A stretch of DNA of 56,037 bases from an uncultured Opitutia bacterium (GTDB lineage: Bacteria > Verrucomicrobiota > Verrucomicrobiia > Opitutales > Puniceicoccaceae). Positions 7,838 to 26,057 of this stretch are shown here, one piece after another; position 1 is the first letter of the stretch, and the number at the start of each line of letters is the position of its first letter. The stretch lies in assembly GCA_913056175.1 (NCBI GenBank), contig CAJXLM010000015.1, positions 1-56,037 on the forward strand, given 5' to 3'. The translations under genes and the position numbers were made by a program. The notes beneath the pieces were generated by a model that saw nothing but the letters and a program-made list of their open reading frames with translations, was not told the DNA's origin and ran no database searches.

Positions 7838-8251
7838 ATGCCCGTCCGCCACAAGACACTGCGTCTACCGAGACGGGGGCGCGGATTGTACGAGCTGACC
7901 CCGCAACTGCGGGCCTGGGTGGGAGAACAAGGCGTGGAAGAGGCGGTGGCCGCCGTTTTTTGCAGGCACACCAGCTGCTCCCTCGTGCTCATGGAAAACG
8001 CGGACCCGACCGCGCGGGCTGATCTCGAGCGATTCCTCGTCGAGCTCGTGCCCGACGGCACCGCCTACGAGCACACCCTCGAGGGGGCCGACGACATGCC
8101 CTCCCACATCCGCATGGCCCTGACCCGCTCCAGCGAGTGCATCCCCGTGTCCCGAGGTCGGCTCCTCCTCGGTACCTGGCAGGGCCTCTTCCTCTGGGAA
8201 CACCGCCACCGTCCCCACGAGCGCGAGATCATTTTCTCCCTCACCCACTGA
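7838..8251 (+). CDS. YjbQ family protein (UPF0047)
   Basis: A 137-residue YjbQ/UPF0047 protein. Visible landmarks are FCRHTSCSLVLMEN near residues 42-55, EGADDMPSHIRMAL near 82-95 and GTWQGLFLWEHRH near 112-124, which contain the conserved His and Glu residues of the family. Members have weak thiamine-phosphate synthase activity in vitro, but the physiological role is unsettled. The gene follows rpmB by 86 bp. It ends just upstream of the tandem repeat array. Confidence 0.9.
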   Translation: MPVRHKTLRLPRRGRGLYELTPQLRAWVGEQGVEEAVAAVFCRHTSCSLVLMENADPTARADLERFLVELVPDGTAYEHTLEGADDMPSHIRMALTRSSECIPVSRGRLLLGTWQGLFLWEHRHRPHEREIIFSLTH

Positions 8252-8340
8252 TCCCACCGCCCCCAAGCACCCCCCGGCCCTCCCGGGCGCACCCAGGAGT
8301 GGCGATGTCGGTGCTCGCGTGGTCCTTCCCGCTGGGGGTC

Positions 8341-8367
8341 TGTTAGTGTCGGACACCAGTAGGTGTT
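8341..8367. repeat. Palindrome motif, unit 1
   Basis: Degenerate copy of the 17-base palindrome TTGGTGTCGGACACCAA followed by TAGGTGTTTGT. Here the left arm has one change (TTAGTGTC). ACACC-agta-GGTGT forms an alternative hairpin overlapping the first. Confidence 0.8.
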
Positions 8368-8642
8368 TGTCTCCGAGTGGTTTAGGGGATTCGGGTGAAG
8401 GTCTGGAGCCGCGGTGGACCGCCGGGGATTCCGGGGTTTCGAGGAGAGGACGAGCCCTCGGGGATTCCTGAATGGTTCAGGGGATTCGGGTGGAGGTCCG
8501 GAACCGGGGCAAACGTCCGGGGAACCCGGGGCTTTCGGGCGGGACGAACCCTCGGGAATCGGGGTTTGCGTAGGATTCCGGGCGAGGGTCGGGCCCGGGG
8601 GGCGGGAAGATCGCGGTGCGCTGAGGAGCCTGAGGGATCGCC

Positions 8643-8712
8643 TCCGGGCTCGCGGGTGAGGGCGGTGTGGAAGGTGGCGGGGTCGGGGTCGTGGGAGAAG
8701 GTGGTGGAGGCG
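8643..8712 (-). pseudogene. Decayed copy of rpe 3' end, unit 1
   Basis: About 70 bp aligning with 9561-9630, the last 23 codons of rpe. The stop codon position reads TCC instead of TCA, so the copied frame lacks its stop. Several substitutions make it the most diverged of the three extra copies. Confidence 0.75.
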
Positions 8713-8743
8713 GCCTTGCGGTCCTTTCCTTTTTGGGAGAGCT

Positions 8744-8769
8744 GTTGGTGTCGGACACCAATAGGTGTT
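8744..8769. repeat. Palindrome motif, unit 2
   Basis: Perfect TTGGTGTC-g-GACACCAA (8-bp arms) at the start of unit 2, followed by TAGGTGTTTGT. ACACC-aata-GGTGT is the overlapping alternative stem. Confidence 0.85.
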
Positions 8770-8949
8770 TGTTTCCGAATGGCTTAGGGGATTCGGGTGA
8801 AGCTCTGGAGCCGCGGTGGACCCTCAGGGATTCCGGGGTTTACGGGGCGGGACGAGCCCTCGAGGATTCCGGGGCTGCGGAGTGGCGGGGCGAAGGCCGG
8901 ACCGGGGGGTGGGGAGATCGCGGTCTGTCGAGGAGCTTGGGGGATCGCC

Positions 8950-9022
8950 TCCGGGCTCGCGGGTGTGGGCGGTGCGGAAGGCGGCGGGGTCGGGGTCGTG
9001 GAAGAAGGCGGTGGAGGCGGCC
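8950..9022 (-). pseudogene. Copy of rpe 3' end, unit 2
   Basis: Translates on the minus strand as STAFFHDPDPAAFRTAHTREP, against GTAFFHDPDPAAFRTALTREP in the true gene, then reads on past the lost stop (TCC for TCA). There is no rpe sequence 5' of it, so only the gene end was copied. Confidence 0.85.
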
Positions 9023-9050
9023 ACCAGGTTCTTCTCGTTTTGGGTGGTTT

Positions 9051-9076
9051 GTTGGTGTCGGACACCAATAGGTGTT
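9051..9076. repeat. Palindrome motif, unit 3
   Basis: Perfect TTGGTGTC-g-GACACCAA again, with the same overlapping ACACC-aata-GGTGT stem, at the start of unit 3. Confidence 0.85.
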
Positions 9077-9256
9077 TGTCTCTGAATGGCTTAGGGGATT
9101 CGGGTGAAGCTCTGGAGCCGCGGTGGACCCTCAGGGATTCCGGGGTTTACGGGGCGGGACGAGCCCTCGAGGATTCCGGGGCTGCGGAGTGGCGGGGCGA
9201 AGGCCGGACCGGGGGGTGGGGAGATCGCGGTCTGTCGAGGAGCTTGGGGGATCGCC

Positions 9257-9320
9257 TCCGGGCTCGCGGGTGTGGGCGGTGCGGAAGGCGGCGGGGTCGG
9301 GGTCGTGGAAGAAGGCGGGG
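9257..9320 (-). pseudogene. Copy of rpe 3' end, unit 3
   Basis: Nearly identical to the unit 2 copy over the terminal codons of rpe, with the same lost stop and the same Leu-to-His change. This shows that units 2 and 3 derive from one another and not independently from the gene. Confidence 0.85.
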
Positions 9321-9353
9321 GGCGGCCGTGAGGTTCTTCTTGTTTGCGGGTCT

Positions 9354-9379
9354 GTTGGTGTCGGACACTAATAAGTGTT
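9354..9379. repeat. Palindrome motif, unit 4 (compensated stem)
   Basis: Here the second stem reads ACACT-aata-AGTGT. Both arms have changed relative to the other units (ACACC/GGTGT), which keeps the pairing. The first palindrome loses one pair as a result. Confidence 0.8.
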
Positions 9380-9560
9380 TGCCTCCGAGTGGCTTAGGGG
9401 ATTCGGGTGAAGGTCCGGAACCGCGGTGGACCGCCGGGGATTCCGGGGTTTCGAGGAGAGTTCGAATCCTCGGGGATTCCGGGGCGGCGGCGTGCCGGGG
9501 CGAGGGTCGGGCCCGGGGGGCGGGGAGATCGCGGTGCGCTGAGGAGCCCGCGGGATCGCC

Positions 9561-10232
9561 TCAGGGCTCGCGGGTGAGGGCGGTGCGGAAGGCGGCGGGG
9601 TCGGGGTCGTGGAAGAAGGCGGTGCCGGCGACCAGGGTATCGGCGCCCGCGGCGGTGCAGCGGGGGGCGGTGGTGCGGTCGATGCCGCCATCGACCTCGA
9701 TGCGGTAGCCGAGGTCGTGGTCGAGGCGGTGTTGGTGGGCCTCGTCGATCTTGCCGAGAACTTCCTCGCGGAAGGACTGGCCGCCGAAGCCCGGCTGGAC
9801 GGTCATGCAAAGGAGCAGGTCGATATGCGGGAGGAAGGGGAGGGCGCGGGCGAAAGGCGTGTCCGGGTTGAGGGCGAGCCCGCAGCGCAGGCCATGCTCG
9901 CGGATGGCGTCGAGCGTCTTTCGGATGGGGTAGAAGGGTTCCACATGGATGATGATCTCGTCGGCCCCGGCCTTGGCAAAGGCCTCCCAATAGTGGTCGG
10001 GGCGAGTGAGCATGAGGTGGACATCGAAGAAGAGGTCCCGGTCGAGGGGCCGGAGGGCGGCCACGGTCTGGGGTCCGAAGCTAAGGTTCGGGACGAAGTG
10101 GCCATCCATGATGTCGAGGTGGACCCAGCTCGTGCCGGAGGCGCGGACGCGCTCGAGGCTGCCGGCGAGATTGTCGTGGTGTCCCCCGAGGATGGAGGGG
10201 GCGCAAACGAGGGGATGCGGGGAGACGGGCAT
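9561..10232 (-). CDS. rpe: Ribulose-phosphate 3-epimerase
   Basis: A 223-residue TIM-barrel enzyme interconverting ribulose 5-phosphate and xylulose 5-phosphate. Visible motifs: APSILGG near residue 10, WVHLDIMDGHFVPNLSFG near 35-52 (metal His and catalytic Asp), FDVHLM near 68, MTVQPGFGGQSF near 138 and EVDGGID near 172 (catalytic Asp). Length is normal. I start at ATG 10232 because the fold begins there; the open frame further upstream overlaps dnaX. It follows dnaX by 58 bp on the same strand and is probably cotranscribed. Its last 23 codons are duplicated in the array downstream. Confidence 0.95.
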   Translation of the reverse strand: MPVSPHPLVCAPSILGGHHDNLAGSLERVRASGTSWVHLDIMDGHFVPNLSFGPQTVAALRPLDRDLFFDVHLMLTRPDHYWEAFAKAGADEIIIHVEPFYPIRKTLDAIREHGLRCGLALNPDTPFARALPFLPHIDLLLCMTVQPGFGGQSFREEVLGKIDEAHQHRLDHDLGYRIEVDGGIDRTTAPRCTAAGADTLVAGTAFFHDPDPAAFRTALTREP

Positions 10233-25310: not shown

Positions 25311-26057
25311 ATGATGCAACAACTCATCCGCACATCTTTCCGCGCCCTTGCCGCAGGCACCGTCCTCGGCGTGGCCGCCCCGGCGCTGGTCGCCCAGGAG
25401 GCCAAGTCCCCCTCGGAGATGACCGAGGCCGAGCTTTACGGTTACGTGGTGGCCCAGCAGGTCGGCCTCGACCAGCTCGGGTTCACCGACCAGGAGAAGG
25501 CCGAGTTCGCCGCCGGCTTCGAGGCAGGTCTCGACGGGAGCATGGCTGCCGTGCAGGACGAGCTCCAGGAGCTGCAGGCCTACCTCGAGGAGCGCTCCTC
25601 GCGAGTCCAGTCCGCCCAGGCGGAGGAGAACAAGTCGGCGGCGCAGGCCAAGATCGCCGAGCTGCGCGAGGATCCGGACGTCATCGAGGATCCCCGGGGC
25701 TTCTTCTACGAAGTGCTCGAATCGGGGAACGGCAACGTGCCGACCATGCAGGACGAGGTGACCGTGAACTACGAAGGCACACTCCTCAGTGGCGAGGTGT
25801 TCGACAGCTCCTACAATCGGGGGCAGCCGGCCACTTTCCCCATGGGTGGGGTCATCCCCGGTTTCTCCGGCGGCCTCTCCAAGATCTCCGAGGGCGGTCG
25901 TGTGCGCATCTTCATCCCCTCGGAACTCGGCTACGGCGACAACCCGCCCCCGCAGAGCCCCATTCCCCCCGGCGCCATGCTCATCTTTGACGCGGAGCTG
26001 GAGGGTGTAGCTCCGGCCGGCCAGGGCGGTCGGCCGGCGATGCCCGGGAATCAATAG
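25311..26057 (+). CDS. FKBP-type peptidyl-prolyl isomerase, exported
   Basis: A 248-residue exported proline isomerase. A signal peptide ends near ALVAQE (residue 29). An N-terminal dimerisation region with long helices (residues 35-130) precedes the FKBP domain: VTVNYEGTLLSGEVFDSSYNRG, FPMGGVIPGFSGGL, RIFIPSELGYGD and the closing IPPGAMLIFDAEL. This layout is that of FkpA/Mip periplasmic foldases. Two adjacent ATG codons (25311, 25314) are possible starts. A clear terminator follows the stop. Confidence 0.92.
   Translation: MMQQLIRTSFRALAAGTVLGVAAPALVAQEAKSPSEMTEAELYGYVVAQQVGLDQLGFTDQEKAEFAAGFEAGLDGSMAAVQDELQELQAYLEERSSRVQSAQAEENKSAAQAKIAELREDPDVIEDPRGFFYEVLESGNGNVPTMQDEVTVNYEGTLLSGEVFDSSYNRGQPATFPMGGVIPGFSGGLSKISEGGRVRIFIPSELGYGDNPPPQSPIPPGAMLIFDAELEGVAPAGQGGRPAMPGNQ

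Follow-up and report, generated by a model that had tools for sequence, protein, structure and literature searches.

The gap between the convergent genes yjbQ and rpe is filled by four direct repeat units, each carrying one short palindrome, a stretch of intergenic DNA and the coding end of rpe, as a copy in three of them and as the gene itself in the fourth. We consider it reasonably probable that a palindrome of the type found at the ends of RAYT-like genes was duplicated in tandem here together with its flanks, from within the rpe end, and that the copies were later homogenized. The array probably represents a variation on a type of repeat cluster already known from bacteria, rather than a novel type of element, and the mechanism of its amplification was probably an ordinary one.

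The window analyzed (56,037 nucleotides) is the whole of contig C15 in an assembly of 2.6 Mb and 84 contigs that is 96% complete. Its kin by rpe are Opitutales (Verrucomicrobiota), and no second genome of the same species or genus was found. On the left of the array, yjbQ (UPF0047/YjbQ family; PF01894, E 2e-36) occupies positions 7838 to 8251 of the + strand, converging with rpe (9561 to 10232, − strand; PF00834, E 9e-63), which encodes an intact ribulose-phosphate 3-epimerase of 223 aa. Unit starts were located near 8333, 8735, 9042, and 9345 on the + strand, giving spacings of 402, 307, and 303 bp, and TRF applied to the array returned a period of 307 with 3.8 copies and a score of 1567, far beyond chance. 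Both results confirmed the three extra units of these lengths described in the first-pass annotation. From left to right, each unit consists of the palindrome, GC-rich intergenic DNA, and the last ~70 to 80 coding bases of rpe, so the earlier description of the repeating block as intergenic DNA plus gene end was borne out. Unit 1 (8333 to 8734, +) reaches 402 bp because the segment that follows the palindrome occurs in it a second time, as a diverged, nested duplication of ~95 bp at ~8465 to 8560. Unit 2 (307 bp; 8735 to 9041, +) and unit 3 (303 bp; 9042 to 9344, +) follow, and unit 4 (9345 to 9633, +) ends on the right in the authentic rpe 3' end. The palindrome had also been proposed to mark the unit boundary. 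It was indeed found in every unit, but it lies ~10 to 15 bp inside the unit edge, and the junction itself is a linker of ~35 bp that mixes rpe-like and left-flank-like sequence. One side of the linkers aligns to rpe up to ~9633 to 9637 and the other to the left flank from ~8300 to 8320, with a GC-rich patchwork of the 'GGyGGtG..GGCG.CC' type between the two aligned sides.

Comparison of the units with one another showed 95.7% identity between units 2 and 3, including an exact stretch of 235 bp, 90% between units 1 and 4, and 86 to 88% for the remaining pairs. The near identity of units 2 and 3 and the divergence of unit 1 thus agreed with the initial observation and make homogenization or recent duplication evident, unless the assembler produced the pattern. 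The differences between units 2 and 3 were confined to the unit edges, as expected from a conversion tract, a recent duplication, or merging by the assembler. It appears extremely unlikely that the assembler created the array, whether all of it or no more than unit 2 or 3. The 235 exact bases exceed usual short reads and the assembly is fragmented, but units 1, 4, and 2/3 differ by 10 to 14%, and the edges of units 2 and 3 differ too; at least three units are therefore real. An artefact may have altered how many copies are seen, but it could hardly account for three or more diverged units: we infer the count of four from the assembly, and the assembler could be partly responsible both for this count and for the 235 bp that units 2 and 3 have in common.

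The copies of the rpe 3' end lie on the − strand at about 8646 to 8738, 8953 to 9030, and 9260 to 9319 (also reported as 8646 to 8719, 8953 to 9026, and 9260 to 9329). In all three, the stop codon TGA (TCA on the + strand) is replaced by GGA (TCC), as the first-pass annotation had stated. The copies, including the first, differ from rpe by amino acid-changing substitutions, and the copy in unit 3 is frameshifted by a 2-bp deletion; they therefore do not look coding. We also considered and rejected a coding function for the array as such, as the ORFs of the units gave no Pfam match and the frame is broken in unit 3. The intact gene stands at one edge of the array, with fragments of its end only downstream of it. 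The duplicated segment starts inside the last rpe codons, and rpe therefore stays whole while the fragments alone multiply. The idea that the array had 'captured' the rpe end was not supported and is not needed, since a plain tandem duplication with an endpoint inside the last rpe codons gives the same layout. The unit was absent from the rest of its own genome and the array from 35 relatives, and at 48 rpe loci of relatives, neither a downstream copy of the rpe end nor the palindrome was found.

A conserved palindrome had been reported, and the motif GTGTCnGACAC, which is able to form a hairpin, was present in 4 of 4 units, once per unit and always in the same orientation. The full palindromes are TGTTAGTGTCGGACACCAGTAGGTGTTTG in unit 1 (8341 to 8369; also reported at 8346), TGTTGGTGTCGGACACCAATAGGTGTTTG in units 2 (8743 to 8771; also reported at 8748) and 3 (9050 to 9078; also reported at 9055), and TGTTGGTGTCGGACACTAATAAGTGTTTG in unit 4 (9353 to 9381; also reported at 9358). 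The tetranucleotide 5' of the stem is GTTG in the array and GTTA in unit 1, rather than GTAG (or GTGG). The whole genome contains six GTGTCnGACAC sites, the four in the units and two on contig C1, with ~2.6 expected from base composition, meaning that the bare motif is not rare. Genome-wide dispersal between genes was not seen, the palindrome being restricted to the array and the ends of the C1 gene described below, and a search of 223 genomes of the order revealed it in no genome but this one. A dispersed mobile repeat or MITE was rejected as an explanation, as the unit and the 24-base palindrome are confined to the array. The lone other match (34 bp; C64:6043-6076) lies in an apparently protein-coding region and seems to be a chance hit.

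When the unit and the palindrome were searched in their own and related genomes, the unit was found at the array only, while the palindrome led to a RAYT-like gene. On contig C1 (43568 to 44476), a RAYT-like gene encoding 303 aa is flanked by an inverted GTGTCnGACAC pair, TTGTTGGTGTCTGACACTTTT and TTGTAGTGTCAGACACTTTT, with GTAG at its downstream end only. The 16-mer TGTTGGTGTCnGACAC occurs exactly in units 2 to 4 and in the upstream C1 end TTGTTGGTGTCTGACACTTTT. No exact match to any flank of eight resident RAYT-like genes was obtained with 4000 16-mers drawn at random from the genome or with 419 palindromes other than that of the array, whereas 2 of 1011 other 16-mer positions of the array did match; these two look like GC-rich overlap. 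The link between palindrome and RAYT-like gene rests on 15 specified bases. The C1 protein had no Pfam match and reached NCBIfam NF047646 (REP_Tyr_transpos) at E 1.5e-7, which is under the curated cut-off. Its homologues make up a large family within the order, and some genomes have dozens of them. In one other genome (G094), TTGGTGCCAGGCACTAAT lies beside a RAYT homologue. It is a compensatory version of TTGGTGTCGGACACTAAT in unit 4, with C-G in place of a T-A pair of the stem and one differing loop base. The pattern joining G094 and unit 4, which was written after the match had been seen, occurred in no other of 273 genomes. We also asked whether GTGTCnGACAC marks RAYT flanks throughout the order and rejected this, since the motif was absent from 30 Y1_Tnp loci; related palindromes lie beside only a few RAYT homologues, and the end sequences seem to be particular to each RAYT. 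Judged from sequence, the palindrome of the array is likely to be of the RAYT-end type. The earlier proposal of a palindrome-linked expansion was thereby upheld in part, its plausibility coming from the likeness between the palindrome and the ends of this resident RAYT-like gene.

The resemblance could be a coincidence if the array arose as a VNTR-like locus, through neutral local duplication of a GC-rich intergenic region in tandem, a reading that we regard as rather unlikely. We surveyed the genome for further arrays in a sample of ~0.4 Mb plus selected loci, and found that 3 of 20 sampled 20-kb pieces carried one, with periods of 195 to 278. Such large-unit arrays elsewhere in the genome, together with the uniqueness of the rpe unit within it, are what neutral duplication would lead one to expect, and the array on contig C10 (period 223) has no RAYT match. 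Against this stand the exact 16-mer at a resident RAYT-like gene end with its empty random and palindrome controls, the compensatory palindrome beside the G094 homologue, and a further array at C20:516-1315 (L156; period 278, 2.9 copies). The latter matches repeats at C39:25488-26531 (L222:2489-3532) with 91% identity across 91 bp; these repeats come directly after a RAYT-like gene with its stop at 25390.

In the C10 array (C10:13889-14482; L149; 2.7 copies, 89%), inverted CCACAGAGG / CCTCTGTGG motifs were observed; none of the RAYT flanks examined matched this array convincingly.

We also weighed the possibility that selection has maintained the units in multiple copies as a structured or regulatory RNA, a terminator, or an mRNA stability element located at the 3' ends of both rpe and yjbQ. 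Hairpins fold in every unit, a hairpin of the form ACACY-ARTA-RGTGT has one pair changed on both sides in unit 4, and terminator-like T tails follow on the + strand in two units. However, no Rfam family matched at gathering score, fold z-scores were only −0.5 to −2.7, and three terminator-like sites compare with 1.4 ± 1.1 in shuffled sequences. Furthermore, no such element lies downstream of rpe at the 48 loci of relatives, and the palindrome columns are no more conserved than the rest of the unit. An RNA function, which the first-pass annotation had offered as an alternative, is therefore very unlikely. A known RNA family, tRNA, or tmRNA in the array was looked for as well, and none was found.

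Eight intact RAYT-like ORFs of ~300 aa (L217-L224) were identified in the genome, namely C1:43568-44476 and those at C6:63045, C9:32418, C19:24284, C24:3883, C39:24461, C40:12378, and C55:10675. The catalytic tyrosine was missing in 8 of the 8 resident proteins examined and the HUH motif in 7 of 8. The tyrosine motif AYIDLNPVRAG is changed to, e.g., RAFVRTAPVRAG, and the HUH motif NHFH to PREIQ, PTGIQ, or EREVQ in the seven proteins, which form one clade with a support of 0.996. In ~50 aligned homologues from other genomes, HUH was kept in nearly all and the tyrosine wherever the motif was readable; HUH and YIDLNPVRAG motifs are present in clear homologues of the order. In E. coli TnpA-REP, Y115F serves as a catalytic mutant (PMC8266576). 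The gene on C6 (L223), the sole resident copy with HUH, is surrounded by a perfect 16-bp inverted pair, GGGGGACAGACATCGC, which fits the GGGGWSAS end consensus of PMC3733652; a PDB search with its protein gave non-significant matches only, some of them to transposase chains.

These losses bear on whether the expansion followed the rolling-circle model of PMC2817692, in which an active RAYT would have nicked the palindrome and the freed 3' end would have primed the copying of the unit again and again. This published model predicts tandem units, and the single palindrome per unit, its uniform orientation, and the presence of RAYT-like genes are in keeping with it. The unit edges, however, coincide with the linker patchwork and not with the palindrome, and all eight resident proteins examined lack the catalytic tyrosine, with seven also lacking HUH; any active RAYT would therefore have had to be lost since, or to lie in an unseen part of the genome. 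We consider expansion by an active RAYT unlikely. Judging by their residues, the resident RAYT-like proteins may possibly represent a domesticated, non-cutting family. That such proteins would bind palindromes, with arrays such as the one at rpe being kept as binding platforms and not as transposition debris, seems doubtful.

We therefore return to tandem duplication of a RAYT-end-type palindrome with its flanks, for which a transposase would not be required, given that the resident RAYT-like proteins are without the residues for DNA cleavage. The starting state would have been a palindrome of this type lying between the genes, downstream of rpe. A stretch of DNA reaching from inside the last ~24 rpe codons, past the stop and through intergenic DNA to just beyond the palindrome, would then have been duplicated head to tail, most likely through illegitimate recombination or strand slippage at short GC-rich matches; the GC-rich patchwork of the linkers fits recombination at short matches. 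Later unequal exchange or gene conversion among the units may have produced further copies and homogenized units 2 and 3. The outcome would be RAYT-end-type palindromes clustered in tandem together with flanking DNA, akin to ordered REP/REPIN clusters. The order of these events, the recombination mechanism, and the absence of a selected function are what we infer from reading one genome.

The statement that no element with such a layout had been described did not hold, because tandem clusters and capture of gene 3' ends have been published (PMC3116915, PMC3733652, PMC2817692), and the layout thus belongs to a known kind. In the description by Bertels and Rainey, ordered clusters consist of REPINs repeated in tandem, 'including the flanking sequences' (PMC3116915). 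These clusters in P. fluorescens SBW25 resemble the array in being RAYT-linked tandem palindromic repeats with flanks, of up to ~four units; however, their units are REPINs (two inverted REPs) with a high copy number genome-wide, whereas the array has one palindrome per unit and a single site. TIRtrons, with TIRYT genes and GTAG REP families, share with this genome RAYT-like genes that have inverted ends, some self-complementary, that can also form clusters (PMC3733652); the C1 gene, with the same palindrome inverted at both ends and a sub-threshold protein match, is a candidate for such a case. The verrucomicrobium O. terrae is named in the same study as rich in GTAG repeats. In contrast to the resident transposases, however, HUH and the tyrosine are reported as conserved in all in that study (PMC3733652), and the array has GTTG/GTTA and not GTAG. 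The 3' termini of rayt genes were found captured between REPs in four BIMEs (PMC2817692). Such rayt-adjacent BIMEs are like the array in that a palindromic cluster contains a copy of a gene 3' end, but there the captured end is that of the rayt itself and the palindromes alternate, while here it is that of rpe and the orientation is uniform. MIRU-VNTR loci of M. tuberculosis (e.g., VNTR3239) are likewise intergenic tandem repeats between ordinary cellular genes (PMC2734929), but their units are shorter (37 to 79 bp), they are not linked to RAYT genes, and they are situated upstream of fpg1 instead of between convergent gene ends. Because the GTAG tag and genome-wide dispersal are both lacking, the palindrome of the array is not a canonical REP. 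The array works like a tandem REP cluster, with a long unit, a single palindrome, and an included housekeeping gene end as its variations.

The loss of catalytic residues in eight RAYT-like genes is perhaps more surprising than the array itself, and its occurrence beside arrays raises the question of whether these can grow or persist without an active enzyme. With four copies at different stages of divergence beside the parent gene, the locus is useful for reading the expansion of such clusters. With this array, the range of RAYT-linked tandem palindrome clusters comes to include an Opitutales lineage, in a form that has no GTAG tag and whose unit includes the coding end of a housekeeping gene.
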